Positions 10,431 to 51,277 of a stretch of DNA of 64,000 nt are shown piece after piece. The translations under genes and the position numbers were made by a program. The DNA is taken from contig NZ_MWPH01000004.1 in assembly GCF_002177135.1 (NCBI RefSeq), positions 62,001-126,000 of the forward strand, written 5' to 3'. The notes beneath the pieces are model-generated. The model saw nothing but the letters and a program-made list of their open reading frames with translations, did no database searches and had not been told where the DNA came from. The first letter of the stretch is position 1; each line of letters begins with the position of its first letter. Source of the DNA: Natronolimnobius baerhuensis (GTDB taxonomy: Archaea; Halobacteriota; Halobacteria; Halobacteriales; Natrialbaceae).

Positions 10431-10525
10431 TCCTCGAGACTGGACGGTGGACTGGATAGACAGCCCAACCAGTGTCTGACGACACGCAAATGGAAGGTGT
10501 CCGTTTAGGGGGCTGCTGGGGCTGC

Positions 10526-11014
10526 ATGGTACCGATGGTTCCAGAGTACGGTTTATCACGTCGAGAGACACTCCGTCTTGGAAGTAGTGCTCTGTTGGTC
10601 ACACTTGCTGCTGGCTGTGCGGATGAAGGGCCAGGTGAGGAAGACGATGGAGACGAATCCAACGACGTTGAACCGGATGGAGCGCTTGAGCCCGATACGC
10701 GGATTCTCTTTGACGCCCAAACATCGGGGTGGGTTGGGATCGAACCCGACGAAATCGCAGATGAAGAGAACCCGACACTCACCCTGCAAGCGGGCGAACA
10801 GTACGAGATCGGCTGGTTCGAAGGCGACGGCGCGACACACAATATCGAACTCGTCGACGACAACGACGACGTGGTCGGCGACTACCAGACCGACGAGGCA
10901 GAAGAGGGTGGCGACGAGCAACTCATTCACTTCGAAGCGACGGACGAAATAGCCCAGTACGTCTGTCGCCTACATGAAACCACAATGCGCGGAGATATGC
11001 AACTCGAGGAATGA
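10526..11014 (+). CDS. cupredoxin (halocyanin-like) lipoprotein
   Basis: A small blue-copper protein, exported and anchored outside the membrane, likely an electron carrier. The N-terminus has a twin-arginine stretch (SRRETLRLG), a hydrophobic segment and the lipobox LAAGC; after it comes a Glu/Asp-rich linker. Copper ligands are visible: His in GATHNIELVD, then Cys, His and Met in YVCRLHETTM. The ATG at 10526 or 10535 fits best because it gives a short n-region before SRR; an upstream GTG at 10472 and ATG at 10490 would add a Cys/Gly-rich extension. It may donate electrons to the cba oxidase, but that is inference. Confidence 0.85.
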   Translation: MVPMVPEYGLSRRETLRLGSSALLVTLAAGCADEGPGEEDDGDESNDVEPDGALEPDTRILFDAQTSGWVGIEPDEIADEENPTLTLQAGEQYEIGWFEGDGATHNIELVDDNDDVVGDYQTDEAEEGGDEQLIHFEATDEIAQYVCRLHETTMRGDMQLEE

Positions 11015-19912: not shown

Positions 19913-21226
19913 TCACTCGCTGCTCTTGGACGAGGATCTCGCGCTAGCGTTTCTCTCGCTGACGACCTCGCCGTCTTTGAGAACCGATCCGACGACACGC
20001 TCGTCGTACCGATACGGCAGGTGTCGGTACGAAGGTGCCTCGAGGACGACCACATCGGCCGGCGTGCCGACCTCGAGTGTGCCTGTGCCATCGAATCGAT
20101 TGATCGCGGCGGCCGCCCGGTCGGTGATGCCACGGAGTGCTTCGCCGGGTGTCAGTCCCATTCCGACGCAGGCAAGCGTCGCCGTGAAGCCCTGTCGTTT
20201 TGCGTAGCAGTTCGGATTGAAATCGCTCCCGAGTGCCGGAATGGCGTTTCGCTCGCGATAGGGCTCGAGGTCGGGATACTCACCGCCGAGGCCGAACGCC
20301 GTCCCAGGTAAGAGCACCGGCGTGACGTCGGCCTCAAGCAGCGTGTCGATATCGTCCGGCGTCGACTGGAGCAGGTGGTCAGCGCTTGCCGCCGAGACTG
20401 CTGCCGCCACCTTCGAGCCACCGAGGTTTTCGAACTCGTCGATGTGGAGTTTCGGCGTCAATCCGTGGTCTGTGCCTGCCTCGAGTATCTCACGAGACTG
20501 GTTAGCGGAGAAGACGTCCGCCTCACAGAAGACGTCGCAGAACTCGGCGACGCCCTGTTGTTCGACGGCGGGGAACTGGTCCTCGATGACGGACGTGGTG
20601 TACTCCTCAGCGTCAGTGTCGTCGGGAACGGCGTGTGCGCCCATGAACGTGGCGACGATGTCGATTGGGTGGCGCTCGTCGGCGCGGCCAATTGCCGCGA
20701 GGAGTTTCAGTTCGGTCTCGGTATCGAGTCCGTAGCCGGATTTGATCTCGAGGGTGGTCGTCCCAGCCGCAAGCATCGTGTCGAGTCGCTCGAGCAGGCT
20801 GTCCGTGAGTTCGTCTTCGCTCGCCTCGCGAACGGCTCGGACGGTGCGGAGAATGCCGCCGCCGTCGGCGAGAATTTCCTGGTAGCTCGTGCCGCGGAGT
20901 TTGGCTTCGAACTCGTCCGAGCGGTCACCTGCGAAGACCGCGTGCGTGTGCGGGTCGACAAAGCCCGGCAACACACACTTCCCGCTCGCATCGAGTGCTT
21001 CGTCTGCGTTGTCGATTGGATACTCTCGAGTGAGCTCATCGCTCGAGCCGACGGCAGCGACCTCGCCGTCCTCGAGGACGACTGCTGCATCGGGCAGTAC
21101 GGAGAGGACGGGACCGTCGGGCGGGCCGCCGGAGCCGTTGGGGGTCGTTCCCGCCGCGTCGGTTTCCGCACTGTTCGCGGGTCCAGTAACCAGTTCGTTC
21201 GCGTTGTAGATGACCGTGTAGCTCAT
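19913..21226 (-). CDS. hutI: imidazolonepropionase HutI
   Basis: A 437-residue cytoplasmic amidohydrolase that opens imidazolone propionate to N-formimino-glutamate, the third step of histidine degradation. The metal-site motif VDPHTHAVFAGDR, the later DVFCEADVF and HIDEFENLGG, and LGSDFNPNCY near the C-terminus are all present. An insertion rich in Gly/Pro/Ala (residues about 20-40) is a haloarchaeal variation. The start overlaps the stop of hutG by four bases, so translation is coupled. Confidence 0.96.
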   Translation of the reverse strand: MSYTVIYNANELVTGPANSAETDAAGTTPNGSGGPPDGPVLSVLPDAAVVLEDGEVAAVGSSDELTREYPIDNADEALDASGKCVLPGFVDPHTHAVFAGDRSDEFEAKLRGTSYQEILADGGGILRTVRAVREASEDELTDSLLERLDTMLAAGTTTLEIKSGYGLDTETELKLLAAIGRADERHPIDIVATFMGAHAVPDDTDAEEYTTSVIEDQFPAVEQQGVAEFCDVFCEADVFSANQSREILEAGTDHGLTPKLHIDEFENLGGSKVAAAVSAASADHLLQSTPDDIDTLLEADVTPVLLPGTAFGLGGEYPDLEPYRERNAIPALGSDFNPNCYAKRQGFTATLACVGMGLTPGEALRGITDRAAAAINRFDGTGTLEVGTPADVVVLEAPSYRHLPYRYDERVVGSVLKDGEVVSERNASARSSSKSSE

Positions 21227-22197
21227 GATTCACCCTCCAGATAGCCGGTGATCGCGTGAGCGACCGTCCGCGCGGCGGCGTCGACAGTGCGACCGTCTGT
21301 ATCTAACGACGGCGCACACTCGACGACTTCGACGCCGGCGAGTCGGTCGTCAGCGGCGAGTTTCCGTACTGCGGCGAACAGTTCGCGGGTCGTCAGCCCG
21401 CCCGGTGTCGGCGCACTCACGCCCGGTGCGGCACTCGCCTCGAGGACGTCACAGTCGACGCTCAGGTAGAGTGTGTCGACATCCTCGAGTGCATCCTGTA
21501 CCGTCTCGACGACAGCGCGTGGGCCGTCTGCGAATGCGTCTGCCGGAACAATCCGTCCTCCCTGCTTGCGGACGTACTCGATGTAGGCGCTCGAGGTTTC
21601 GAAATGTCGTGCTCCGACGGCGACGTACGTCTCGAGACCAGCCTCGTGCAACTGTCGGTATGGGGTTCCGCTCGTTGGGCCGTCTCGCACCTCGCGACAG
21701 TCGAGGTGGGCGTCGAAGTTGACGACTGCGACGTTGCCTTCGGACTCGAGCAACGGCGCGACGTTCCCGTAGGTCAGCGAGTTATCGCCGCCCAGAAACA
21801 CCGGGAGCGGTCCCAAGTCGTGGATCTCTGTGGCAACATCTCGGACGTGACTCTGGACGTCGGCGACATTCGTCTCCGGCAACTCGAGGTCGCCAAGGTC
21901 ACAGATTGCTGTGCTCGAGTCGCTGTCGACGACTGTCTCCTCGATCCCCGTTCCGCCAGCCGACAGGTGCGCCGTCTTCGTGGCCGCGAGCGAGCGACGG
22001 ATCTCGAGGGGGCCTTCTCGCGTCCCTTTGCGGCCAATCACCGCGCCGTCGTAGGGTTCGCCCACGAGGGCGACTGCCGCATCCGTCGCGTCTTCGAACT
22101 CGCTAGCTGTGACGATATCGCCGAACTGCCGGTCGTTCGGGTCGCTCGAGGGGCCGGTCCATCCCTCCCAGTCGGGATGTGCAATTGCTCGAGTCAT
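21223..22197 (-). CDS. hutG: formimidoylglutamase HutG (arginase fold)
   Basis: A 324-residue ureohydrolase that releases formamide from N-formimino-glutamate. The binuclear manganese motifs are present: [18 protein letters not shown] and [14 protein letters not shown]. The overlap with hutU (four bases) and hutI (four bases) marks it as the middle gene of a tightly coupled operon hutU-hutG-hutI. Confidence 0.96.
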
Positions 22198-23915
22198 TCG
22201 TCGTACATTGGAATCCGAACGTTCGAGTGGGCTGCTTCGTCCAGTGCCTCCTCGTAGCCTGCATCGGCGTGACGAATGACGCCCATGCCGGGGTCCGTCG
22301 TGAAGACGGCTGCTGCCTTCTCGGCAGCAAGGTCCGTGCCGTCGAGGACGACGTGGTTGTTCGTATGCAGCGAGTTTCCGATGCCGACGCCGCCGCCGTC
22401 GTGGACGCTGACGATGTCAGCGCCGCCGGCGCAGTTGACCAGCGCGTTGAGAATCGGCCAGTCGGCGACGGCGTCGGTGCCGTCTTTCATCGCTTCGGTC
22501 TCCCGATTCGGACTGGCGACGCTGCCCGCATCGAGGTGATCTCGAGTGACAACGATTGGGGCCGAAATCTCACCCTCGGCGACGAGTTCGTTGATCCGGA
22601 GCGCGAAGCGAGCGCGCTCAGTATGTTCCTCGCTGTCGGTCGCGTACCCGAGCCAACAGACTCGACTGGGGAGTCCCTGGAACTGTACCTGTTCCTGTGC
22701 GAGGTCGATCCAGCGACGCAGGTGGTCTTTCTCGGGGAACAACTCGAGGACGGCTTCGTCGGTCCGGTGGATGTCGGCGGGATCACCCGAGAGCGCGGCC
22801 CACCGGAACGGTCCCTTGCCGCGACAGAACTGCGGGCGGATGTAGGCGGGGACGAAGCCTGGAAAGTCGAAGGCATCGTCCATTCCGCGGTGGTCCTGAA
22901 CCTGTCCGCGGATGTTGTTACCGTACTCGAAGGCGATTGCACCTCGCTCCTGTAACTCGAGGATCGCGTCGACGTGGCGTTCCATCGTATCCAGGCTCGC
23001 CTCGAGATAGGCGTCAGGGTCGTCCGCGCGCAACTCGTCGGCTTCCTCGACCGTGTAGCCATCAGGGTAGTAGCCCTCGAGTGCGTCGTGGGCGCTCGTC
23101 TGGTCGGTGACCACGTCCGGAACGTAGCCCTGCTCGAGCATGGTCTCGAGGAGTTCGGCTGCGTTGACGTGGACGCCGACGCTGTAGGGCTCGCCAGCCT
23201 CGCGGGCGTCTTCTGCGCGGTCGATGGCGTCTTCGATGTCGTCGGCCTTTTCCATGCAGTAGCCGGTGTCGATGCGCCGGTCGATTCGTTCCTCGTCAAC
23301 TTCGGCGGCGATACAGACGCCCTGATTCATCGTCACCGCAAGCGGCTGTGCACCGCCCATGCCACCGAGACCGGCGGTGACGACCGTCTTCCCGGTGAGG
23401 TCGCCGTCGTAATGCTGTCGAGCGAGTTCGGCCAGCGTCTCGAACGTTCCCTGAATAATCCCTTGAGTGCCAATGTAGGCCCACGAGCCGGCGGTCATCT
23501 GGCCATACATGATCTTCCCTTCGGCCTCGAGTTCGTGGAAGTGATCCCAGTTATCCCAGTTGCCGACCAGGTTGGAGTTCGCGATTAACACCCGCGGCGC
23601 GCGCTCGTGCGTTCGAAACCGTCCGACTGGCTTGCCCGACTGTACCAACAACGTCTCGTCGTCCGCGAGCGAGCGCAGTTCCGAGAGAATCGCGTCGTAG
23701 GCGTCCCACGACCGCGCCGCCCGCCCGGTGCCGCCGTAGACAACCAATTCCTCCGGCTTCTCTGCAACCTCCGGGTCGAGATTGTTGTTGAGCATCCGTA
23801 GCGCCGCTTCCTGTCGCCAGCCCTCACACTCGAGGTCGGCTCCAGTCGGCGCGCCCTGGTACTCCTCCCACTGCTCGCTCGGTTCGCCGTCGCCGAGAGT
23901 CGAATCAGTTCCCAT
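22194..23915 (-). CDS. hutU: urocanate hydratase HutU
   Basis: A 573-residue NAD-dependent enzyme, near the normal 550-570, converting urocanate to imidazolone propionate. Hallmarks are [18 protein letters not shown], the nucleotide site [35 protein letters not shown] and DGSxAVADWP-like [18 protein letters not shown] at 23915 (MGTDSTLG) begins 26 bases after a TATA-like GGTATTACTTC on the minus strand, so the transcript is probably leaderless. The long upstream frame crosses the divergent promoter and is not coding. Confidence 0.96.
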
Positions 23916-23936
23916 GTGACAGAGAACCACGCGACG

Positions 23937-23978
23937 AAGTAATACCGACGGTGTTCCGTTCGGAATAGGTTTTATATA
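23937..23978. promoter_or_regulatory. divergent hut promoter with palindromic operator candidate
   Basis: The minus-strand TATA GGTATTAC (23937-23945) serves hutU; the plus-strand TATA TTTATATA (23971-23978) serves the regulator at 24000 (ATG 27-28 bases on). Between them lies the perfect dyad TTCCG-TT-CGGAA at 23954-23965. A protein bound there would touch both promoters; the regulator itself is the obvious candidate. Confidence 0.55.
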
Positions 23979-23999
23979 CGCCATCTGTGTACAGCCGCT

Positions 24000-24650
24000 A
24001 TGTACGAGGCGACATTCTCGATTACAGACTCGAGTGCTTACACTGGGCCGACCGGTGATGCGGACTGCCGGATCGAACTCTGGTGTAACGACCACACGGA
24101 CCTGCTCTACATCTCCGGCACCGAAATCGAGCCCCTGTTAGCCCAGATTCGATCTGACATCGGCATCGAGACCGAACTACGCCGCGACGAAGAAGCCGTC
24201 GTCATCACGAGTTCGTGTCTCAAAGAGCACGAGGTGACCCACATCGAACGCTACCTGCAGGCGTACAACTGCCTCCTCTTGCCGCCGCTCCGATACGAAA
24301 ACGGCGCAAAACAGTGTCGAATCCTCGCACTCGAGTCGGCAAATCTCACTGACCTCTATGCGGAGCTGGTCGCGGACGGCTTCGAGATCGACGTCCGAGC
24401 GAAACGTGAGATCAGCACGCCGGTCCAGTCGACCCCGCTTTTGACCCTCGATGACGTCTTGCCGGAACTCACTGAACGCCAGCGAGATGTCCTCACGCTA
24501 GCGGTGGAGTGGGGATATTACGACCTTCCTCGAGAGACAACGACGGCGGACCTCGCCGACGAAATTGGGGTCAGCCGGCGGACGGTAGAAGATCATCTCC
24601 GACGTGCTGAACGAAAGTTGCTCACGTCGCTCGTTTCATATCTGTACTGA
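24000..24650 (+). CDS. Bat-type HTH-10 regulator, probable hut regulator
   Basis: A 216-residue DNA-binding protein. The first 140 residues are the mixed alpha/beta sensor region usual in this family. The C-terminus is the HTH-10 domain: [20 protein letters not shown], then [20 protein letters not shown] and RRAERKLL. It is divergent from hutU with 84 bases between the starts, which suggests it controls the hut operon and itself. It converges on the YjiH-type transporter gene. Confidence 0.9.
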
Positions 24651-26312: not shown

Positions 26313-26930
26313 ATGAACGAGCAGACGCCGAGGGTGGGTCGCGACGGAATAGGCACGGGAATCGATGGGCCAATTCGCCGTCGAACGGTGCTGAGTATCA
26401 CGGCTGGGATTGGCGTTACGGCACTTGCTGGCTGTCTCGGAGAGGACGACGACGCACCGGATCCGATCACGATTGACGCTGATCGAGCCTGCGACCAGTG
26501 TACGATGCAGATCGGCCAGCATCCAGGACCAGTTGGACAGACACACTACGCCGACTCTGAAGCCGTCATCAACGAGGATCGACCAGCGCAGTTCTGTAGT
26601 TCCGTGTGTACATACACCCACACGTTCGAACAGGAAAGTGCCGATCACGACCCCACGGCGATGTATCTAACCGATTACTCGAGCGTTGACTATGATGTCC
26701 AAGCCGATGGCGACGCTGAGGCGATCAGCAGCCACCTCGAGGCCGACACGTTCGCGGCTGCGGACGGACTCACGTTGGTCGTCGACAGTGATGTCGAGGG
26801 TGGGATGGGAGCGTCGATGATCGGCTTTCGCGAGAATACTGAGGCAGAGGAGTTTCAGGAGGAGTACGGCGGCGAGCTGTACGACCACGGGGAGGTCACG
26901 CCGGAGTTGGTCATGTCCCTGATGGACTGA
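26313..26930 (+). CDS. nosL: NosL family copper-binding lipoprotein
   Basis: A 205-residue exported lipoprotein. Residues 21-41 carry IRRRTVLS, a hydrophobic segment and the lipobox LAGC. The mature part has the NosL features: CDQCTMQIGQHPGPVGQTHY (Cys and Met copper ligands), PAQFCSSVCTYTHTF, and MGASMIGF. NosL delivers Cu(I) to periplasmic targets, classically the NosZ CuZ site. The nosYFD genes lie next to it, convergent, with a 16-base gap between stops. Confidence 0.9.
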   Translation: MNEQTPRVGRDGIGTGIDGPIRRRTVLSITAGIGVTALAGCLGEDDDAPDPITIDADRACDQCTMQIGQHPGPVGQTHYADSEAVINEDRPAQFCSSVCTYTHTFEQESADHDPTAMYLTDYSSVDYDVQADGDAEAISSHLEADTFAAADGLTLVVDSDVEGGMGASMIGFRENTEAEEFQEEYGGELYDHGEVTPELVMSLMD

Positions 26931-26946
26931 TCGAACGCAAGGGAGG

Positions 26947-27828
26947 CTATCGGCGGACGCCCCAGACTGCAACCGCGAGCGAGCCAAGCGTCCATGCGAG
27001 CAGTCCGACGAGACTCGCAATCGGCGAGGCTACTTGTGGCCCAGTTCCCGACGCGACGATGATCGTCGTCTCGAGGACAAGTCCGCGATAGGCACTGAGG
27101 GGGCTGATCGCCAGCGCGTACAACAGGTCGGCGTCGCCGATCACGCCCTCTGCAAGCCCGTAGACGAGTGCGAGATCGAAGCCGACGAGGAGCGCAACAA
27201 GCGCGACGATAGACAACCCAAGCGCGCTTCGGGTTGCGCTGACTACCGCCGAGATCGCGAGTGCAACGGCGAGCACGGCGAGTGCGAACAACACTGTCAG
27301 GACAAGAAACCGGGCGAACAGCACCGGCGAGTCGGCACCGGCGTGTGTCGCGTAGAGTCCGGCAGTGCCATCCGCTGTGACGGCAATCGCGACCGCAGCG
27401 ACGACGAGCGGCAGCGCAACCCCAACTGTAAGTCCGACAGCCCGGCCCGCGTAGACGCCGAGGACGATCTCTCGAGGCGAGACGGGATACGTCTCGAGGA
27501 CATCGAGTTCACCCCGCTCGTCATCGGCGAGAATCGCTCGGTAGCCGAATGCGATGGCGACAATCGGCACAAGCAACTCGAGGGGGGTCAGCAAGTCGAC
27601 GGCCGTCGGGAGGTAGCCAGCGGTGTAGCCATCGCCGATCCAGGTGACTCCGAGGACGACCGCTGTGAGCGCGGCCGCAAGCAGGTAGAACGTTCGGTTT
27701 CGGGCGACGGTCCGGAGTTCGCGTCCAATAATCGTCCAGAGAAGGTGGCCGGTTCCCGGTGTCTGTGCAGACACCGACGAGTCGGCGTCGTGGCTGCTGT
27801 CGTCAGCGCCGGCAGTTTGGCCACTCAT
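26947..27828 (-). CDS. nosY: ABC transporter permease NosY
   Basis: A 293-residue permease with six membrane spans after an acidic 25-residue tail. It starts the ABC-2 type core with IIGRELRTVARNRTFYLLAA and has the coupling region ADDERGELDVLETYPVSPREIVLGVYAGR, typical of NosY. With NosF it forms the transporter that works with NosD in copper-site assembly. It overlaps nosF by four bases. Confidence 0.92.
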   Translation of the reverse strand: MSGQTAGADDSSHDADSSVSAQTPGTGHLLWTIIGRELRTVARNRTFYLLAAALTAVVLGVTWIGDGYTAGYLPTAVDLLTPLELLVPIVAIAFGYRAILADDERGELDVLETYPVSPREIVLGVYAGRAVGLTVGVALPLVVAAVAIAVTADGTAGLYATHAGADSPVLFARFLVLTVLFALAVLAVALAISAVVSATRSALGLSIVALVALLVGFDLALVYGLAEGVIGDADLLYALAISPLSAYRGLVLETTIIVASGTGPQVASPIASLVGLLAWTLGSLAVAVWGVRR

Positions 27829-28655
27829 TCGTCGGTCACCCCCTGTACCCGGACGGTTCCCGCCTCGGCTGCAACTGACTCCTCGTAGACCGCACGGAGT
27901 GAATCCACCTCGAGGGCTGCCTGAATGTTCGCCGGTGAATCTTGGTGCAGAATCTGTCCGTTGTCGAGGACTGCAACGTCGTCGGCAGTCCGGTCAACGA
28001 GTGCCAGATCGTGGGAACTCAACAGCACGGCGGTTCCGTCAGCAGCCAGTTCGGACGCGACGTCGAAGACATGGCTGCTCATCCCAGGATCGAGACCACT
28101 CGCAGGTTCATCAAGGACGATAATCGGTGGATCGCCAATCGTTGCCTGTGCGATGCCGACCAGTCGAGTCATCCCGCCCGAAAGCGCTTCGACAGGGCGA
28201 CTGGCAGCATCGGCGAGTCCGACCGTCTCGAGGCGATCCATGGCGTCGGTTTCAGCCTCGTCAGCACCGACCAGCGACGAGTAAAAGCGCAGCGTCTCGA
28301 GAACGCTAAATCCGGGTCGAAACGCGGGCTGTTGTGGGAGATAGCCAATCCGGCGAGCGGCCGCGTCGCCCCGATAGCTGACCGATCCCGATGTCGGCTC
28401 GAGGAGGCCGGCGAGCACCCGAAGCAGCGTCGTCTTCCCGGAGCCGTTCGGGCCGATCAGCGCCGTGACGGTCCCGGTGTCGACGGTCGTGGAAACGTCT
28501 TCGAGAACCGAAACTGTCCCGTAGTCGTGGTCGACGCTGTCGGCCTCGAGAACGGCCTGCTGTGTGGATGCGTCCGCTGGCGTCGTCTTGGTATCGTTCG
28601 ATTCTGCGTCGCTAGCCGCGCTCGTGCTCGTGTTTGTGTTCGTATCCGTGGTCAT
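27825..28655 (-). CDS. nosF: ABC transporter ATP-binding protein NosF
   Basis: A 276-residue ATPase. Walker A is IGPNGSGKTTLL, the signature is ALSGGMTRLVGIAQA (a Gly-Gly-Met variant), and Walker B is IIVLDEPASGLDP, followed by the switch histidine in LLSSHDLALVD. The first 35 residues are Thr/Ser/Asp-rich and extra compared with most homologues. It overlaps nosD and nosY by four bases each, so nosDFY is one translationally coupled operon. Confidence 0.93.
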   Translation of the reverse strand: MTTDTNTNTSTSAASDAESNDTKTTPADASTQQAVLEADSVDHDYGTVSVLEDVSTTVDTGTVTALIGPNGSGKTTLLRVLAGLLEPTSGSVSYRGDAAARRIGYLPQQPAFRPGFSVLETLRFYSSLVGADEAETDAMDRLETVGLADAASRPVEALSGGMTRLVGIAQATIGDPPIIVLDEPASGLDPGMSSHVFDVASELAADGTAVLLSSHDLALVDRTADDVAVLDNGQILHQDSPANIQAALEVDSLRAVYEESVAAEAGTVRVQGVTDE

Positions 28656-30595
28656 TGTGCCTCGTGACTCGTTCGGTCACAGGACCAGGCTCGATCCGCC
28701 CACACTGTTCCCTCGAGTAGGTCCGGATTGTTCGGTTCGCAGGTCGGTGCCAGGTCGACGATGCTGCCGGTTCGCATTCCGGGGACGGTCCCCTGGAACC
28801 CAGAGAGAGCCTCGAGTCCGGGTGCACGTGACAGGGTCGGCGTGCCGTCGACGCGGTGGAGGCGCTGGTCGATGGGTGCTGTTGGCGAGTACGCCCGGTC
28901 GACAGTTGTCTCGGCGCTGCGGTCGCCGGGGAAGGGTAGTGCCCCCTGCCAGTAGTTCCCGCTCTCGCCGTCAGTCCAGATTCGCAGCGGGCCGGTGCCG
29001 GCTTCAGCGTGAATCTCGTTGTCGATAAAATCGTTTGCGGTGACCTGATTCGTGGGCAACATCGCGCGGGTTTGGGCGCCGATTTCGTTGCCCGCGATCA
29101 CGTTGCGCTCATAGAGCGTGTCCGTCGCATCGACCCGGAGTCCGACATGGCTGTCGGTCAGGACGTTCCCGGCGATATAGGAGGAACTTCCGCTGGGGAA
29201 CAACGCGTAGTCCGCGTTCTGCACCACGTTATCGACGATGGCGTTTCGCTCGGGACCAGTCATGATATAGATGCCCGTATTCGACTGATTGCGCACCTGA
29301 TTCTCCGCAAGCAGCGAGTCTGAGGTATGCATCAGGTGAACCCCGAGTCGGTTCTCCTCGAGGTGGTTGTTCCTGATGATCGTGTCGGGAGAGCGGTGAG
29401 TATAGATGGCGTCTCGCCCATCAAGTACTGTCGAGTCCTCGATGACCACTGGCGACCGGAATGCGAGAATCCCCGTGTGTCCATCCTCGAGGTCATCGGG
29501 ACTATCGATGGTCACGTTTCGGACGACTGACTCGCCGCTCCGGCGGAGAATAACGCCACTCGGTGCGTCGTCTACGGTGACGTCTTCGATCAGAGCCCCG
29601 GGTGCGGAGTGGACACCGATGCCGGCGTCTCCGCCCGCGTAGTTCCCTTCGAACGTTCCGTCCCAGTCGTCAGAGTCCGGATCATCGCCCGGAAGGTCGC
29701 CATCGCCCAACCGTTCGGAGCCAGACCCGACAATCTCGAGGCCAGTAATCGCCGTTCGCTCTGCTGTCGCGGTGATCACTGTCCCGTTGTCGCCACCATC
29801 GATGGTGACGTTCCCCTCGCCAACGAGCGTCAGCGGCCGATCAATCTCGAGGCGCTCCTCGTATTCGCCGTCGGGAACGAGCACAGTCGTGTTCGCTGGC
29901 GCTTCCTCGAGAGCTTCCTGGACGGTGTCGGTGTCCTCACCGACGACGGTCGAGACGGGCCGGTCGCGGAGGGCCGTTGCAGCCTCGACTCGCTGGTCCC
30001 CCTCGCGGTGCTGGTCGTCGACTCGATCCCGTACCGCTGTTGCCTCGTCAGTCTCGAACTCGGCCTCAAGGAGTTCATCCCACGTGAGGACGATGCCGTC
30101 GTGGGTTTCGGCGAACGCGTGGGCGTCTTCCCGGTCAGAAAATGGCATCACCGTATCGCCACCGGGTGCAACCGCATCGCTCTCGGAGACGTACCAGGCG
30201 TCCTCGGCGTCGTGCCAGGCTGGCTGATTGTCGACCGTTGGATACCCGTCCGCGTTCAACTCGATGTCAGTCGCCGAATAATCGCTGACGTAAATCGTCA
30301 ACGGGTAGCCAAACTGCTGGGTATGGCCCTCGCTCCGCTGTGCGGTGACGAACGTCTCGAGGCCGTAATAGCCAACGACGTACTCGTACTGGGAGTAAAA
30401 CACCTGCGCCTTCGGCAGTTCGACCTCCTCCTCGAGGCCGCGTTCGTCCTCGAGGGCGAGTCCCATCGAGACGGTGTCGTCGAAGAGCGCAGGCTCAGGG
30501 TCGCTCGTTTCGACATCGAGTACAAACAGGCCGACTATGGCCACCGCAACGACGAGAACGACGCTGACGGCGACGAGACGCCATTGGCGCTTCAC
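28652..30595 (-). CDS. nosD: NosD beta-helix protein with NosL-like N-terminal region
   Basis: A 647-residue exported protein with an N-terminal membrane anchor (residues 8-27). Residues about 40-190 do not belong to the usual NosD. They contain YPLTIYVSDYSATDIEL, AWYVSESDAV, TVMPFSDREDAHAFAETHDG and VLTWDELL, which read like a NosL domain. From about 215 the right-handed beta-helix follows (VQEALEEAPANTTVLVPDG, then many NTGIYI- and GVHLMHTSD-type coils). NosD helps mature a periplasmic copper site. No nosZ is in the window, so the client is uncertain. Confidence 0.92.
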   Translation of the reverse strand: MKRQWRLVAVSVVLVVAVAIVGLFVLDVETSDPEPALFDDTVSMGLALEDERGLEEEVELPKAQVFYSQYEYVVGYYGLETFVTAQRSEGHTQQFGYPLTIYVSDYSATDIELNADGYPTVDNQPAWHDAEDAWYVSESDAVAPGGDTVMPFSDREDAHAFAETHDGIVLTWDELLEAEFETDEATAVRDRVDDQHREGDQRVEAATALRDRPVSTVVGEDTDTVQEALEEAPANTTVLVPDGEYEERLEIDRPLTLVGEGNVTIDGGDNGTVITATAERTAITGLEIVGSGSERLGDGDLPGDDPDSDDWDGTFEGNYAGGDAGIGVHSAPGALIEDVTVDDAPSGVILRRSGESVVRNVTIDSPDDLEDGHTGILAFRSPVVIEDSTVLDGRDAIYTHRSPDTIIRNNHLEENRLGVHLMHTSDSLLAENQVRNQSNTGIYIMTGPERNAIVDNVVQNADYALFPSGSSSYIAGNVLTDSHVGLRVDATDTLYERNVIAGNEIGAQTRAMLPTNQVTANDFIDNEIHAEAGTGPLRIWTDGESGNYWQGALPFPGDRSAETTVDRAYSPTAPIDQRLHRVDGTPTLSRAPGLEALSGFQGTVPGMRTGSIVDLAPTCEPNNPDLLEGTVWADRAWSCDRTSHEAQ

Positions 30596-39396: not shown

Positions 39397-39711
39397 CTAG
39401 TTGAACGCGCCTGCCACGAGCAGCGGGAAGACCAGCGTCGCCTCCGCTTCGATCTGTGTGTAGTTCGCTCGTTCGTCCTTGATTTTGCCCCACGAGACTG
39501 CCTCGTTCGGCGGGGCACCCGACAATGAGCCGTCTCCTTCCATCCCTGTCGAAATGTATACGACGTAATCCGCGCCGCCGCGGAACAGATTGGTCATAAT
39601 CGCGTGATGTTTCGGGACGCCGCCACCGACTGCGATCAGCCCCGTTGTGTCTGCGAGTAACCCATCCTCGATGAGGGAGCGAAAGCGAGCGAGTAGGGTG
39701 GAGTCGTTCAC
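39397..39711 (-). CDS. C-terminal fragment of deoxyhypusine synthase-like protein
   Basis: Only 104 residues, against about 300-350 for the enzyme that starts hypusine formation on aIF5A. The retained part is the active-site end: VGGGVPKHHAIMTNLFRGGA, YISTGMEGDGSLSGAPPNEA, then VSWGK with the catalytic lysine, and LVFPLLVAGAF. The N-terminal NAD- and spermidine-binding core is missing and nothing upstream can supply it, as the frame starts (GTG) on the last bases of the ATPase gene. Either a truncated relic kept by cotranscription, or a small protein with a new role. Confidence 0.8.
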   Translation of the reverse strand: MNDSTLLARFRSLIEDGLLADTTGLIAVGGGVPKHHAIMTNLFRGGADYVVYISTGMEGDGSLSGAPPNEAVSWGKIKDERANYTQIEAEATLVFPLLVAGAFN

Positions 39712-41796: not shown

Positions 41797-44220
41797 TCAC
41801 AGCGACCGCGACGAGTTGATGACGACCAGCAGACTGCTCGTTGCCATTGCGAGGGCTGCAACGAGTGGACTCAGTAGCCCAGTGATCGCAACTGGGATTG
41901 CAATGGCATTGTAGACGAATGCCCAGCCCAGATTCTGGCGGATTCGGCGGTGTGTCCCCGACGAAATGTCGAAAACGTCGACGATAGAGCCGAGGTCATC
42001 GCCAAGGATCACGGCGTCTGCAGCATCGGTCGCGAGTTCAGTGCCGCTCCCCATCGCGATTCCGACGTCTGCGGCAGCCAACGCGGGCGCGTCGTTGCTT
42101 CCATCGCCGACCATTGCGACCGTTCCGCGCGTCCGGAGCCGACGGATCGTCTCGGCTTTGGCCTCGGGCGGGACCGCTTCGAAAACGTCGTCGACGCCGT
42201 CGATGGCGCGAAACCGATCAGCCGAGGCCCCCTCATCACCGGTGAGGACGACGACTGATCGATCAACTGAGAGCGTATCGATCACCGTCTCCCAGTTCTC
42301 ACGGGGCGAGTCGCTGACTGCAATGACGCCGTGGACACGACCATCCCAACCGACGACAACTGGTACCTCACCCGCAGATCGTGTCTCTTCAATACTCGCT
42401 GCCAGTGACGCTGGAATCGAGAGGCCACGGCTACGGGCAAATTCGGGATGCCCAACGAGCGTGCGCTCACCGTCGATGACGCCGGTAACGCCTCGAGCAG
42501 TTCGTTCGAAGTTTCCAACGTCAACAGTTTCGACTGCATCACTATCTGTGTCATCGAACGGTGCATCGGCGATTGCACGGCCGATTGGATGCTCGGAGAG
42601 CGCTTCGACGGCCTTGGCGCGGCACAAGACAACACCGGCATCGACCGGCTCTCGAGTCTGGTCGGTACTCTCGTCGACGTAGACGTCCGTGACAGACATC
42701 TCTCCCTCAGTAAGCGTCCCGGTCTTATCGAGGACGACAACATCGATAGTCGGTGTCGCTTCGAATATCGTCTCCGTTGCAACGACGATTCCGCGTCGGG
42801 CTGCCGTCTGGATACCCGACGCGATTGCAAGCGGTGTCGCAAGTCCAAGCGCACACGGACAGGAGACGATTACGACCGTGAGCCCGACAAGCAACGCTGT
42901 ACTCGGACTCGAGCCGGTCACGAGCAGTACAGTTGTTGCGATAGTCGCGAGGACGACAACGAGTGGAACGAAGACTGTCGCGAGTTTGTCTGCGAGTCGC
43001 TGGATGCCCGGTCGGGCGCTTTGAATCGACCAGAGTAGCGACACTAGTCTATCGTGGGTACTTTTTGCGTCGTCACCGACCTCGACGACGACCGGTGCAT
43101 CTGTGACGACGGTCCCACCTCGAACAGGATCGCCGGGCGTTTTCGTCACTGGCAGAGACTCGCCAGTAATCAGCGATTCGTCGACGGCCGCCTGTCCCTC
43201 GTGGATCGTTCCATCGAGTGGGATGCGCTCTCCCGAGCGAACGAGGAGGTGGTCGCCCGGATCGATGGCAGACAGTGCAACTGTGTCACCGCTGTCTGCC
43301 AGTCGGGCGGTATCGACCTGTGCTTCGGTCAGCTCACTCAGCAGTCCCGCAGCGCGGCGCTTGATCCGGGTTTCGTAGTAGGTGCCAGCGGTGACGACGA
43401 GGACAACCGCGACGGACACATCGAAGTACAGATCTGTCCGTCCCAGAACCATCGCGAGGGTACTGTACGCGTACGCCCCCACGGCAGCCAGCGAGACGAG
43501 GAGATCCATATTGGGCATTCCCGACCGGAGGCTGACGTAGGCCCCGCGCAAGATAGGCCAGCCAGTGTAAAACAGGACGAACGACGTCATCAACCAGATG
43601 TTCACTACGAGGTAGTAGCCATCGTAGCTCCCGAACTCCGCCAACGGCTCGTAGCCAAAATACGTCGGATAGAGAAACACGCCATACCAGACCATCACCA
43701 TCATCCCGAACAACCCGCCACCGATAAGGAATTTCACCAGTGAATCATCGCGGGTGCGGTCGTCCTGCTCGTTCGTCCGTTCGCGAGCGTCATAGCCGTA
43801 CCCCGAAAGCACAGTCGGAAGCGCCGTCTCGTCGAGGGCCTCAGGATCGTACGCCACCCTGACCGTATCAGTTGCGTAGCTCGCCTCCACGCCGAGCACT
43901 CCCTCTGTCGCCATTGCCCGCGTCTCGAGAAATGCCTCACAGGTCGCACAGTGCATCCCATCGACCGTCAGATACGCATCCTCGCCCTCGAGATCGTCCA
44001 TCGTCGACGACTCACTCGCCAGCCGGTCACGAACGGCAGCACCGTCCGTTTCTGCAGTCTCACCGAGTGCCCGGTGGACTTCGAGACAGCCACGACAACA
44101 AAACTGCGTGTCATCGGGTCCAGTAATGGGATCACTCGAGATCGGGAGCGAACAGAGACTGCAGCCGCTCGAGTCGTCTGCAGGAGTTTCAGGTTCGGTT
44201 GGAACGGATGTGTGACTCAT
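41797..44220 (-). CDS. CcoI/FixI-like copper P-type ATPase
   Basis: An 807-residue copper pump. The N-terminus has a cysteine cluster (CSLCSLPIS at 20-23 and FCCRGCLEV at 40-45) typical of CcoI/FixI, then a heavy-metal domain with GMHCATC (88-94). The membrane metal site is CPC at 454-456 and the phosphorylation motif is DKTGT at 498-502; [10 protein letters not shown] is the hinge. CcoI-type pumps export Cu(I) slowly to build cytochrome oxidase copper sites. The neighbouring cbaDBAC operon is the obvious client. Confidence 0.92.
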
Positions 44221-44689: not shown

Positions 44690-44893
44690 ATGAATTCGGC
44701 GACAGACCACGAACAGAATACACAACGACGTGAAATCGGCCACGACGAGTACAATCCGGTAGGGACACTCGCATTGATCATGCTGTACTTTCTCATTTTG
44801 GTCGCGCTCTGGTTCTTTATGTACTTTGTTGAGTTCTTGGGGAACGATCCAACGGTCGTCGGCTCTGTCTTTCTCGCAGGGGGGCTCATATGA
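44690..44893 (+). CDS. cbaD: ba3-type terminal oxidase small subunit CbaD
   Basis: A 67-residue single-span protein starting MNSATDHEQNTQRREIGHDE, with the span LALIMLYFLILVALWFFMYF. Position and form match CbaD, the small subunit encoded first in cbaDBAC of Natronomonas-type ba3 oxidases. It overlaps cbaB by four bases. Confidence 0.82.
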   Translation: MNSATDHEQNTQRREIGHDEYNPVGTLALIMLYFLILVALWFFMYFVEFLGNDPTVVGSVFLAGGLI

Positions 44894-45708
44894 ATATTCA
44901 CACGTATGAGAAACTGTGGCTCGTCGCTGCGATGGTACTAATTGTCGGGTTCATTGCGACCATCACGTATGGGTCGGTCGCCCTCGGTATCACGATGGTT
45001 GGTGATCAGGAACCGACTGTTGAACCGGGGGAACTGAACGATGACGAGCGCTTCGGAGATCCTGGCGTCGAACACGTCGGTGAAAACCAATACGACGCAT
45101 ACGTCGTCGCCCAAACCTTTGCGTTCCGACCTGAGGTGCTCGAGGTCCCAGCAAACAGTGACGTAACGTTCTACGTAACCAGCCGTGACGTCATTCACAG
45201 TTACAGTGTCGTTGGGACCAACATCAACACGATGGTGATTCCTGGCGAGGTCGCCCAGATGACTGTCGAATTCGATGACCCAGGCGAGTACGGTGTCGTC
45301 TGTAACGAATACTGCGGGTTCAACCATCACGAGATGGAAGGCCAAATCCACGTCGTGCCCGAAGACGAGTTCACTCTCACCGAACTGTCGGCTACGGCTC
45401 CTGATGAAGTGACACTCGACGAGGACGTGACGATTGATGTGACGGTACAGAACGGATTGCTGGATGATATCGAGACGGAAGTAACTCTCGAGAGTGCCAA
45501 CGAAACGATGGAGACGACGCTCTCCGTCGCGGGCGACACAAGCGAGGAAACGACGTTCACACTCGAGGCGTCTGAACTTGGAGAGGGCGACCACGACTGG
45601 ACGGTCACTGCCGATGGCGAGGAAGTGAGTGGGACTGTGACTGTGATGACGGACAGCGAAGACGACGCAGACGATGCTGCTGCGACTGGAGGTGATGCTG
45701 ATGAGTAA
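44890..45708 (+). CDS. cbaB: cytochrome c oxidase subunit II (ba3 type) with extra C-terminal domain
   Basis: A 272-residue subunit with one N-terminal anchor (8-32). The CuA site is visible: His103 (VIHSYSV), Cys138, Glu140, Cys142 (CNEYCGF), His146 and Met149. It takes electrons from a copper protein or cytochrome. Residues about 163-255 form an additional beta-rich, Ig/CARDB-like domain (TLDEDVTIDVTVQNGL, GEGDHDWTVTADGEEVSGTV), followed by an acidic Ala/Asp tail; usual ba3 subunits II end near residue 165. Confidence 0.93.
   Translation: MNIHTYEKLWLVAAMVLIVGFIATITYGSVALGITMVGDQEPTVEPGELNDDERFGDPGVEHVGENQYDAYVVAQTFAFRPEVLEVPANSDVTFYVTSRDVIHSYSVVGTNINTMVIPGEVAQMTVEFDDPGEYGVVCNEYCGFNHHEMEGQIHVVPEDEFTLTELSATAPDEVTLDEDVTIDVTVQNGLLDDIETEVTLESANETMETTLSVAGDTSEETTFTLEASELGEGDHDWTVTADGEEVSGTVTVMTDSEDDADDAAATGGDADE
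45688..45696 (+). promoter_or_regulatory. Shine-Dalgarno-like site of cbaA
   Basis: GGAGGTGAT lies four bases before the ATG at 45701, inside the end of cbaB. It decides between three in-frame ATGs (45674, 45695, 45701) in favour of 45701. Confidence 0.6.
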
Positions 45709-47497
45709 TTCGACAGGTACGTATCTCGAAATGTTCCCAGCGGAAGCGAGAATTGTGCGGATGGCATTCTACAGTTCGTTCCTTGCCCTCGCAATCGGTG
45801 GGCTGTTCGGACTGATCCAGACACTTCATCGAACTGATGTCCTCCGATTTATCGATTCGACGGACTACTATACCGTTCTCACCGCACACGGCGTGTTGCT
45901 TGCAATTACGTTTACAATTTTCTTCCTCGTTGGCGTGTTCACGTGGGCGGTAACAACCAGTTTAGATCGGGGCCTCGAGGACATACGATTCACGTGGGCC
46001 TGGTACGGGTTGATGGTCCTTGGGACGGTGTTGACCGCGATTCCAATCTTCGCCGGGTTCACTGATGCAATCGACATGAGTGCCTCGGTGCTGTTTACGT
46101 TCTATGCCCCGCTGCAGGGCCATCCACTGTTCTACCTTGGACTCGTTTTGTTCGTCGTCGGTACCTGGCTCGCTGGAGCCGACTGGTTCCGGTCGTGGTG
46201 GGCCTGGAAACAGGAACATCCCGACGAGCGTATCCCACTCCCGACGTTTATGGTTCTGACGACGACGCTGATGTGGTATATCGCGACGCTTGGCGTTGCC
46301 GTTTCGATCCTCGCGTTCTTGCTTCCATGGTCACTGGGCTGGATCGACACTATCAATCCACTGCTGACCAGAACGCTATTCTGGTTCTTCGGTCACCCGG
46401 TCGTCTACTTCTGGCTGATGCCGGCGTACATGATGTGGTACATCATGTTGCCAAAGATTTCGGGCGGGAAACTGTTTAGCGATCCGCTTGCCCGTGTTGT
46501 GTTCGTCCTCTTCTTGATTCTCTCGGTCCCAACGGGGATCCACCACCAGTATCTCGATCCCGGGATCGCAGAGGGCTTCAAGTTCATCGCAATGACGAAT
46601 ACCATGTTTCTGTTGCTCCCTAGTTTACTGACGGCGTTTACTGTCGTTGCCAGCATGGAACACGGCGCTCGTCAGCGCGGCGGCGAGGGCTACTTCGGCT
46701 GGCTGACGGCACTGCCATGGCGTGACCCCATTTTCACCGGAATGGCGCTTGCGGGACTGATGTTCGCTGCTGCCGGCTTCTCGGGCATGATCAACGCCGG
46801 CATGAACATCAATTATCTCGTCCACAACACGTTCTGGGTGGTCGGTCACTTCCACCTTACTGTCGGGACAGCCGTTGCACTGACGTTCATGGCTGTTACC
46901 TACTGGTTCCTCCCACAGGTGACCGGCAAAGAACTCTGGAACCGCTCTGTTGCGCTCGGCCAGGTCGTCCTCTGGTTCGTCGGAATGACGTTCATGTCCA
47001 ATGCAATGCACCGCGCCGGCCTGCTTGGGATTCCACGTCGAACCGCCGAACCACAGTACGACGGCTTCGAGTTCGAAGCCGGCGTCGGGAGCGTCGCTGA
47101 ACTCGACGCACAGATCGTCCTCGGCGGCATCTTGCTGACACTCTCCCTGGTGCTGTTCTTTGCGAACGTGATCGGAACAGTACTCAACAGTCGCAGCGAG
47201 ACGCTTCCACCAAACGAATACGCCGAGACACTCTCCGGCCCAGAGGACGCACCACCCGTCTTGGATAACCTCAAACTCTGGACGGCGATTGCAATCGTTC
47301 TCGTCGTCTTTGCGTATACGTTCCCACTGCTAAGCATCGTCGACCGTGGCGGGCTGTTCGGCCCCGATATTACGCCGTTCCCCACACTCGTCGACCCAGG
47401 AACCGTCATCGCATACGCTGGCCAGCAACTCGAGGGCCTTGTGCTCGCAGTGATGACGCCACTCGTTGAGGCCACTCTCTCGGCCGTGATACGCTAA
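45701..47497 (+). CDS. cbaA: cytochrome c oxidase subunit I (ba3 type)
   Basis: A 598-residue haem-copper oxidase subunit with about 13 spans. The low-spin haem ligand is in TAHGVLLAITFTI. The CuB/cross-link site is FGHPVVYFWLMPAY (His and Tyr), and the haem pair is in HNTFWVVGHFHLTVGTAVAL. The absence of the D-channel motif and the HPVVYFW sequence agree with class B oxidases. It reduces oxygen at the membrane and pumps protons. The start overlaps the end of cbaB by eight bases. Confidence 0.96.
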   Translation: MSNSTGTYLEMFPAEARIVRMAFYSSFLALAIGGLFGLIQTLHRTDVLRFIDSTDYYTVLTAHGVLLAITFTIFFLVGVFTWAVTTSLDRGLEDIRFTWAWYGLMVLGTVLTAIPIFAGFTDAIDMSASVLFTFYAPLQGHPLFYLGLVLFVVGTWLAGADWFRSWWAWKQEHPDERIPLPTFMVLTTTLMWYIATLGVAVSILAFLLPWSLGWIDTINPLLTRTLFWFFGHPVVYFWLMPAYMMWYIMLPKISGGKLFSDPLARVVFVLFLILSVPTGIHHQYLDPGIAEGFKFIAMTNTMFLLLPSLLTAFTVVASMEHGARQRGGEGYFGWLTALPWRDPIFTGMALAGLMFAAAGFSGMINAGMNINYLVHNTFWVVGHFHLTVGTAVALTFMAVTYWFLPQVTGKELWNRSVALGQVVLWFVGMTFMSNAMHRAGLLGIPRRTAEPQYDGFEFEAGVGSVAELDAQIVLGGILLTLSLVLFFANVIGTVLNSRSETLPPNEYAETLSGPEDAPPVLDNLKLWTAIAIVLVVFAYTFPLLSIVDRGGLFGPDITPFPTLVDPGTVIAYAGQQLEGLVLAVMTPLVEATLSAVIR

Positions 47498-48443: not shown

Positions 48444-48965
48444 TCAGTCAGCGCTCGTGGCCGACGTCTCCGATGCGGTCCGCTGGCTCCGCCAGATGCC
48501 CTGGAGGTACGCGCCAACGAACATGCCGGCGAGTGCCCACAAGATTGTGATGTTGCCAACGCCGAGGCTGGCGTAGGCCGCGCCGGGACAGATCCCGGAG
48601 AGGCCCCAGCCGACGCCGAAAACCGCGCCGCCGATCAGGACGTTGCGGTCGAACGATTTCAGCCGTCGACCGTAGGTATCTCCCGTCAGTGGCGCACGCG
48701 TTCGGAGTCGCGGAACCAGCGCGAAGGCGATCCCGGTGACGACCGCCGCGCCGCCCATGACGAACAGCAACCCGAAGTCCTCGAACTGCAGGAAGTTTAA
48801 GACGACCTCCGGACGGGCCATATGGCTGAATCCGAGGCCGAAGCCGAAGATCAGGCCGCCAACGAAGATCAGCGGCATGAACAGCGGATGTCTGTCGCTC
48901 GCGGGTCGCTTTGCTCGCCGCTCGCCTTTTCGAGATCCTCCCTTCGGTCGCATCTCGCTGCTCAC
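48444..48965 (-). CDS. YeeE/YedE family (DUF6691) sulfur-transport membrane protein
   Basis: A 173-residue protein, half of a split YeeE/YedE transporter. The four spans include GGLIFGFGLGFSHMARPEVV and GVGWGLSGICPGAAYASLG, with a Cys in the channel motif G-x-CPG. The natural family start would be near DRHPLFMPLIF; the 23 residues before it (MSSEMRPKGG, then RKGERRAKRP) are encoded by a repeat cassette at 48899-49002. GTG 48965 and ATG 48953 are both possible starts. It is paired with the gene at 49021. Confidence 0.9.
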   Translation of the reverse strand: MSSEMRPKGGSRKGERRAKRPASDRHPLFMPLIFVGGLIFGFGLGFSHMARPEVVLNFLQFEDFGLLFVMGGAAVVTGIAFALVPRLRTRAPLTGDTYGRRLKSFDRNVLIGGAVFGVGWGLSGICPGAAYASLGVGNITILWALAGMFVGAYLQGIWRSQRTASETSATSAD

Positions 48966-49002
48966 GGGTCGTCACCCCCCCGTTCGCATTTCCGAGATTC
49001 TC
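48899..49002. repeat. diverged cassette units overlapping the YeeE 5' end
   Basis: GCTCACGGGTCGTCACCCCC at 48960 and CGTTCGCATTTCCGAGATTC after it match the complement of the 55-bp unit of copy E (GCTCACGGGTCGTTCCTCCC, CGTTCGCTTTTCCGCGGTTC). A second worn unit starts about 61 bases earlier. No outer CTATAG ends are present. Confidence 0.6.
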
Positions 49003-49020
49003 CGACGAGAATCTCGCTCA

Positions 49021-49578
49021 CTACGGACTCACCCCCAGTGCCATCACGACCTGTGCCGTCCCAATCGCCACGATCAGGAACGTGATGACGCCGATAATCG
49101 ACGTCTTCGAGGCCGAGCCGACGCCACAGACGCCGTGGCCGGAGGTACAGCCCTTCCCAATTCGGGTTCCGATCCCGACGAGAATCCCGCCGAGGAACAG
49201 CCGCCACGGCTGGACGTCCGTCAGCCAGAGCGTGATTCCGCCGACGTCGTACACCTGTCCGGTCGAACCAGCCTCGTAGAGCCCACTCGAGACCAGGCCA
49301 GACTGGAATGTCACCGCGTAGACGGCTGCGCCCGCAATAATACCGAGCGTAAAGACGACGCGCCAGTCTCGAGAACTGCGGTACTGCTGGAACCGCGACT
49401 GGTCCGAAACGTACGACAGCGTCGACTCGAGGAACGTACTCGCACCGGCCGGAATCGCGGTGCCCAGGTAAATGACGACGGCCCCGAGGCCGACGAGTGC
49501 GCCGCCAACGGCGTAGCGACTGATCCCGTTCGGAAACAGCGATTCGAACAGTGCGGGTGCAACAAGTTCAGGTACCAT
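49021..49578 (-). CDS. YeeE/YedE family sulfur-transport membrane protein
   Basis: A 185-residue protein, the other half of the split transporter. It has five spans and the channel motif GIGTRIGKGCTSGHGVCGVG, whose cysteine is expected to handle thiosulfate-like sulfur. The first 20 residues carry MVPELVAPALFESLFPNGIS. It lies 18 bases after the rhodanese gene, so rhodanese, YedE and YeeE form an operon. Confidence 0.93.
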   Translation of the reverse strand: MVPELVAPALFESLFPNGISRYAVGGALVGLGAVVIYLGTAIPAGASTFLESTLSYVSDQSRFQQYRSSRDWRVVFTLGIIAGAAVYAVTFQSGLVSSGLYEAGSTGQVYDVGGITLWLTDVQPWRLFLGGILVGIGTRIGKGCTSGHGVCGVGSASKTSIIGVITFLIVAIGTAQVVMALGVSP

Positions 49579-49596
49579 TCGACTGGATCGTTGAAG

Positions 49597-50790: not shown

Positions 50791-51030
50791 ATTGTACACT
50801 GCTCAGTAGTGGCTCCGAGACCTTAAGCATTTGCATGGTATTCCCCAAAGCACACAATATAGGTACAGAGTAGATGACGGAGAATGTGTACTAAGCACGC
50901 GTATGTGCCTTTAGTCGGCAGCGCAGAGATCGAACAAACAGCAGGTGTTCGTAAACAGTGCAATAATCGATATCCTTTTATGGACTGCCCCGATATTGTG
51001 TGGTAGCTCCAATACAGAGCACAAAAGAAC

Positions 51031-51276
51031 ATGAGCTCGGAATACCAGACCACAGAGACGCTCGACGTGAAAGGACAGTCCTGCCCAATGCCTATCGTCA
51101 AAACCAAACAGGCAATCGACGACCTCGAGGCTGGGGACGTACTGGAAGTCGTGGCGACCGATTCGGGAAGCATGAGTGACATTCAGGGCTGGGCGGAGGG
51201 CACCAACGGAGTTGAACTTCTTGACCAGGTCGAGGACGGCGACCGCTTCATCCACTACGTCGAGAAAACGGAATAA
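51031..51276 (+). CDS. tusA: TusA/SirA family sulfurtransferase
   Basis: An 81-residue sulfur carrier. The active-site motif is GQSCPMPIVKTK, with the persulfide Cys followed by PMP, and the fold continues with GDVLEVVATDSGS. It passes sulfane sulfur between proteins. It is the first gene of a three-gene plus-strand operon (tusA, dsrE-like, HalOD1), divergent from the rhodanese operon. Confidence 0.94.
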   Translation: MSSEYQTTETLDVKGQSCPMPIVKTKQAIDDLEAGDVLEVVATDSGSMSDIQGWAEGTNGVELLDQVEDGDRFIHYVEKTE

Positions 51277-51277
51277 C

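Follow-up and report, generated by a model that had tools for sequence, protein, structure and literature searches.

A NosZ-independent NosL/NosDFY paralogue of haloarchaea and the ba3-type oxidase as its candidate client

Introduction

The NosL protein and the NosDFY ATP-binding cassette (ABC) complex are treated as a hallmark of nitrous oxide (N2O) reduction, and their genes are used to infer denitrification. Which protein do they serve when they lie apart from nosZ, the gene for nitrous oxide reductase? The question is raised by a 64,000-nucleotide stretch of Natronolimnobius baerhuensis (NZ_MWPH01000004.1, positions 62,001-126,000, forward strand; contig C4 of genome G000; henceforth the window), in which positions 26313-30595 hold four intact genes for homologues of NosL, NosD, NosF and NosY. 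An earlier note on this DNA had remarked on the lack of nosZ and proposed that the set was recruited to load the CuA site of a ba3-type oxidase encoded in the same window, or another cupredoxin. We report here that the NosD component is a NosL-NosD fusion, which is a haloarchaeal clade of its own, apart from the NosZ-linked NosD. When genera are compared, its distribution tracks cbaB, the gene for the CuA subunit II of the oxidase, and not nosZ. The set most probably supplies copper to extracellular cuproproteins, NosZ not being one of them, and the ba3-type oxidase is the leading client candidate.

A second, divergent NosL/NosDFY set

The set consists of a nosL gene on the forward strand and a nosD-nosF-nosY operon on the reverse strand. 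The stand-alone NosL, a predicted lipoprotein, is encoded at 26313-26930 (+; PF05573, 143.2 bits). The operon encodes a NosY-like ABC-2 permease (26947-27828, -; PF12679, ABC2_membrane_2, 47.6 bits), a NosF-like ABC ATPase (27825-28655, -; PF00005, ABC_tran, 105.8 bits) and the fusion protein of 647 amino acids (28652-30595, -; PF05048, 95.1 bits). These profile matches bear out the four gene assignments of the earlier note. The nosD/nosF and nosF/nosY pairs each overlap by 4 bases, and the convergent nosL and nosY are 16 bases apart. As in the NosZ-type maturation systems, a NosF ATPase and a NosY permease share one operon with NosD.

The absence of nosZ is true of the window but not of the genome. 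A profile match to nosZ (705.3 bits, cut-off 625) is found on another contig, at G000:C3:596200-598002, where it is flanked by its own 260-amino-acid open reading frame (ORF; orf260), nosD, nosF, nosY and nosL (locus L003). The two sets are homologous in all four components, but the canonical operon carries nosZ, its NosD is unfused (TIGR04247, 367.6 bits, cut-off 300), and identity to the window set is 40% for NosL, 36% for NosF, 32% for NosY and 25% for NosD. With a complete nosZ operon on another contig, the window set is therefore a second, divergent set; its origin as a recent duplicate of the canonical one was rejected, as the identities are just 25-40% and the NosD clades are separate. 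The earlier note had taken a nosZ elsewhere, under shared regulation, as the observation that would speak against recruitment. Such a gene exists, but with its own accessory set. A small search for exact inverted repeats in 20 nosZ upstream regions (this genome's included) and 53 others (from the genome's own fusion, NosL and oxidase operon and from the fusions of relatives), in which no repeat recurred at nosZ, does not bear on shared regulation either way. The genome also encodes a fourth NosL homologue, weak yet above the cut-off (45.6 bits), at G000:C1:109127-109519 (L081).

The NosD component is a NosL-NosD fusion

The protein that had been read as NosD does match NosD, but the NosL domain preceding its β-helix had been overlooked. 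This domain spans residues 60-177 (30065-30418, -; PF05573, 61.2 bits, cut-off 24) and is followed by a NosD-type right-handed β-helix at residues 214-532 (29000-29956, -). The AlphaFold model (mean predicted local distance difference test score 81.4; region 553-611 unreliable) begins with a membrane helix (residues 2-23), followed by the NosL domain and, between it and the β-helix, a long helix at 185-211. Its best solved matches are the NosD chains of the NosDFYL (7osf) and NosDFY complexes (Z 39.2, 329-331 residues), and 329 residues align with 7osf_A at a root-mean-square deviation of 2.0, placing the fusion in the NosD β-helix fold. With TIGR04247 it scores 192.5 bits, under the curated NosD cut-off of 300. 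In a tree of NosD proteins, 21 canonical and 72 fusion sequences split without exception.

The residues that could handle copper are distributed unevenly over the set. Of 51 fusions, taken from 41 loci, 47 have no Cys at all in the fused NosL domain and the other four have two, and no Met or Cys of this domain is conserved. The β-helix shares H420xM422 and M445 with canonical NosD; these three residues, kept in 68/72 fusions and 21/21 canonical proteins, may bind copper. The stand-alone NosL has the Cu(I)-site residues C41 (in the lipobox), C60xxC63xM65 and M165, and thus the CxM copper motif of the NosL lipoproteins of NosZ-type maturation systems; the solved NosL 7og7 (PDB) matches it with an E-value of 3.5e-8. 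Across 32 stand-alone homologues the lipobox Cys is kept, each residue of CxxCxM is present in at least 91%, and one Met is invariant. An extra Cys pair, C95/C99, is found in 88-91% of these homologues and is missing from the canonical NosL of the genome.

The window set hence resembles the NosDFYL/NosDFY machinery of nitrous oxide reductase (7osf, 7o0y) in its four parts, its β-helical NosD with H420xM422 and M445 conserved in both clades, and its NosL with CxxCxM and a conserved Met. It differs from NosDFYL in the fusion of NosD to a NosL domain that has lost its Cys residues, in falling below the TIGR04247 cut-off and in its genomic distribution. Eight loci of relatives (L035-L039, L055, L056, L058) encode two fusion paralogues ~1.5-8 kb apart, where the window has one copy; in three of them (L035, L038, L039) a further NosL-like lipoprotein, DsbD_2 and SCO lie between the paralogues.

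The fusion tracks cbaB and not nosZ

We surveyed 292 genomes drawn from the class Halobacteria. The fusion protein finds a match in 215, of which 187 are strong (best E <=8e-80) and 28 weak (best E >=5e-25), with no values between ~5e-25 and 8e-80; the 28, whose matches fall short of 1e-30, were taken to carry canonical NosD only. Four genomes counted with the fusion (G025, G090, G106, G192) have a best listed match that aligns from residue 222 onward only, in G288 the fusion was found as two pieces, and the N-terminal domain was inspected one by one for the listed matches. The fusion variant is widespread in haloarchaea, and 120 of the 187 fusion genomes are without nosZ, though the genome studied here is not itself nosZ-less. 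A scan of 84,980 species genomes of one collection yielded 72 retained fusion loci, all under archaeal (haloarchaeal) titles except one. The exception, L130 (SLRZ01000135.1), is a contig of a Nitriliruptoraceae metagenome-assembled genome (MAG) encoding a 65% identical fusion, F and Y; a haloarchaeal fusion in a bacterial MAG is probably a binning error.

The candidate client lies in the window as a COX2/COX1 pair, in agreement with the ba3-type oxidase of the earlier note: CbaB, the CuA subunit II (44890-45708, +; PF00116, 46.7 bits), and CbaA, subunit I (45674-47497, +; PF00115, 293.5 bits), whose called start, overlapping cbaB, is probably too early. In the survey, cbaB is found in 201 genomes (three weak matches, 1e-15 to 1e-18, being left out), nosZ in 86, nirK in 161, bd oxidase in 173 and COX2 in 288; with 288/292 genomes positive, COX2 in general does not discriminate and was set aside as a partner. 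Fusion and cbaB occur together in 168 genomes and are both missing from 72, while 19 have the fusion only and 33 cbaB only (odds ratio (OR) 19.3; genus-stratified 11.3). When one genome is taken per genus (77 genomes), the median OR is 18.5 for cbaB (resampling range 8.9-52.5), 2.72 for nirK and 1.03 for nosZ, and the association is positive in 13/15 informative genera for cbaB, 11/17 for nirK and 6/11 for nosZ. A joint model gives 20.6 for cbaB, 3.9 for bd oxidase, 2.3 for nirK and 1.2 for nosZ, and within cbaB-positive genomes neither nosZ (OR 0.70) nor nirK (OR 1.14) adds anything. The bd oxidase, which is copper-free, gave an OR of 2.4 as a control; the fusion follows nirK or bd oxidase weakly. 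As would be expected of an assembly factor, the fusion co-occurs with a CuA oxidase, seen through its gene cbaB, albeit with exceptions. Since the fusion and cbaB queries both come from this genome, detection bias is possible; both score distributions are clearly two-peaked.

Neighbourhoods point in the same direction as regards nosZ. In 20 nosZ loci, one genome each, canonical-type NosD is present in all and the fusion in none, and a role of the fusion as NosZ partner in other genomes was rejected on this ground. In the present genome, too, nosZ is on a different contig from the fusion. Without yet knowing the positions of cbaB, we chose 40 fusion loci (window excluded) that scored strongly and were spread over genera, and confirmed the neighbouring domains on representatives. 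Within 9 kb of these, SCO1/SenC occurs at 22 loci, DsbD_2 at 15, cbaB at 6 and a copper ATPase at 6; the corresponding counts around the 20 nosZ genes are all 0. In 47 loci of at least 15 kb, with species partly overlapping the first set, SCO is found at 27, DsbD_2 at 18 and cbaB at 6. The fusion is thereby linked to oxidase and SCO genes, as an assembly factor would be. In Natronoglomus (L155) cbaB-cbaA immediately precede fusion-nosF-nosY-nosL, and in Halohasta (L191) one stretch runs through DsbD_2, SCO, NosL, CcdA, fusion, F, Y, SCO, cbaA, cbaB and a copper ATPase. A small membrane protein, DUF7471 (PF24283), also recurs near the fusion operon, at 8/40 loci and 0/20 nosZ loci (for example L044:3275-3694; also L049, L062, L071 and L073).

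Weighing the oxidase against other clients

The co-occurrence pattern suggests a new role for an established machine of copper loading. We consider the chances about even that the window set is a NosZ-independent NosL/NosDFY paralogue whose main client is the CbaB CuA subunit encoded ~15 kb away. More tentatively, and with somewhat less assurance than that, the fused, ligand-free NosL could be a built-in docking part and the whole a haloarchaeal ATP-driven machine that, together with SCO, loads ba3 CuA across most of the class. The recruitment put forward in the earlier note is thus partly supported: it gains comparative support from cbaB co-occurrence and SCO proximity, though its premise of a missing nosZ fails genome-wide, and the loading of CuA itself is something we infer.

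In such a mechanism Cu(I), possibly exported first by the copper ATPase, would be bound outside the membrane by the lipoprotein NosL and handed to the β-helix of the membrane-anchored fusion. The ligand-free NosL domain of the fusion might be a docking site or lid that is permanently in place. NosF could then hydrolyse ATP and, via NosY, drive copper release into the apo-CbaB CuA site, with an SCO chaperone and thiol reductase cooperating in the loading. The NosZ of the genome would be served by its own canonical NosDFYL.

Several observations weigh against the oxidase as main client. Of the 187 fusion genomes, 19 are without cbaB, and none of these has a close CbaA: in 18 the COX1 relatives are all distant (at most 36% identity among the matches listed; best E between 1e-9 and 1e-55, where two positive controls reach <=1e-282), and the remaining genome, G128, shows no COX1. 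Conversely, the set cannot be a strict requirement, since 18 of the 201 genomes with cbaB lack both the fusion and nosZ. G128 keeps fusion, NosF, NosY and NosL (L111:8359-12566 and L111:13112-13738) though COX1 and COX2 were not detected in it, and a halocyanin-like gene lies directly beside the fusion; the G+C content at the locus is ~46%. In the window, unrelated genes separate the set from the oxidase, which is 15 kb away; of SCO genes the genome has two, located on contigs C1 and C2, and none on the window contig. Proximity, too, is a weaker argument than it appears. Fusion positions were available for 126 genomes, and those of cbaB, nosZ and nirK for 132, 86 and 133; expectations assume a 3.7 Mb genome. 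Among the matches listed, cbaB lies within 30 kb of the fusion in 14/89 genomes (2.2 expected; 8 genera), nosZ in 1/54 and nirK in 0/54, but bd oxidase does so in 7/54 (1.3 expected; 4 genera), and closeness alone is hence not specific to copper oxidases. Finally, in the available parts of two accounts of nitrous oxide reductase, NosL and NosDFY serve CuZ and not CuA, the latter relying on Sco/PCuAC (PMC6530538, PMC7558416).

These points bear most directly on a broader reading, in which the set is a general loader of extracellular cuproproteins (halocyanins, NirK and CuA oxidases) and the cbaB link reflects a greater number of such proteins in ba3 species. We regard this as rather unlikely, while a halocyanin or a mixed client set is possible. 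The reading would accommodate the 19 fusion genomes without cbaB and also G128, which has the set and the adjoining halocyanin-like gene without a detected heme-copper oxidase; G128, possibly an anaerobe, offers the best opportunity to test for a client that is not an oxidase. It would also fit the weak but retained one-per-genus association with nirK and, as far as the accessible text of two papers goes, the proposal of NirK as recipient for orphan nosDFY sets of Gram-positive bacteria (PMC13068155, PMC3475470). The loss of any nirK contribution within cbaB-positive genomes, the lack of nirK near the listed fusions and the dominance of cbaB in the joint model all speak against it.

It is far less probable that the window set is a backup or redundant maturation set for the genome's own NosZ. 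The presence of nosZ in the same genome and a raw fusion-nosZ OR of 2.5 would agree with this, but by genus the association falls to 1.0-1.3, most fusion genomes do without nosZ, all 20 nosZ loci have a NosD of their own, and the two sets of this genome are divergent. Equally improbable, as CuA has no inorganic sulfide, the stand-alone NosL retains its Cu(I) ligands and the SCO and CopA neighbours point to copper delivery, is an ABC transporter that moves a non-copper cargo such as sulfur species, or performs general copper efflux, with NosL and NosD as mere accessory binders. In favour of this reading, the window has genes for sulfur transport and for a thioredoxin with its thioredoxin reductase, and papers differ on what NosDFY moves, with sulfur export in one (PMC6530538) and a copper relay in another (PMC13068155).

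Relation to known systems

Given that NosL serves CuZ and not CuA in nitrous oxide reductase, a NosDFY machine for an oxidase CuA would be a new job. Service of NosDFY-type machines to an oxidase CuA is not described in the available portions of five papers (PMC6530538, PMC7558416, PMC13068155, PMC3475470, PMC9240420), and a proposal of an oxidase as NosDFY client was not found in searches of an open-access PMC library. The architecture itself is on record: the portion of PMC9240420 available lists it among the domains of Haloferax mediterranei (Table 3) and notes, citing Zumft and Kroneck, nosFY without nosZ in H. volcanii. Sequence records name it 'NosL/NosD' or 'NosD domain-containing protein', as in the plasmid annotation of Natrinema thermotolerans CP031304; such haloarchaeal records match the fusion architecture and assign no client besides NosZ. 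Comparable orphan nosDFY/nosL sets are reported from Parageobacillus and Bacillus azotoformans (PMC13068155, PMC3475470). Like the window set, these Bacillaceae sets are accessory genes without a linked nosZ for which an alternative copper client was proposed; unlike it, they are not described, in the text available, as having a NosL-NosD fusion, and the guessed client is NirK. The Sco1/SenC CuA assembly factors, whose SCO genes accompany the fusion operon more often than any other extra gene, are a different protein family.

If this paralogous branch serves a terminal oxidase, a match to nosD or nosL in a haloarchaeon is no sign of N2O reduction, the 'nos' genes of many haloarchaea without nosZ would be explained, and an ABC-driven copper relay could build CuA. 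Haloarchaea that have no nosZ and are amenable to genetics allow a direct test of this prediction.

Other genes of the window

The copper ATPase of the earlier note is confirmed as a copper-translocating P-type ATPase at 41797-44220 (-; TIGR01511, 421.6 bits, cut-off 397), whereas its cupredoxin, at 10472-11014, is marginal, falling just below the PF00127 cut-off (20.1 against 21.2 bits). The oxidase and the copper ATPase are 11-15 kb from the nos-type set, and gene maps show the same CopA-cbaB-cbaA neighbourhood in L060, L061, L066 and L067. A 104-amino-acid ORF at 39397-39711, adjoining the P-type ATPases, is a truncated or fragmentary gene, its match to deoxyhypusine synthase (PF01916, 112.8 bits) being confined to the final 90 positions. 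Directly beside the copper set, 19913-24650 holds imidazolonepropionase-, formiminoglutamase- and urocanate hydratase-like ORFs of histidine degradation, named by eye from their sequences, and an HVO_A0563-type HTH_10 regulator. Beside the oxidase genes, 48444-51892 encodes two Sulf_transp proteins, a rhodanese/metallo-β-lactamase protein and a DsrE-like protein.

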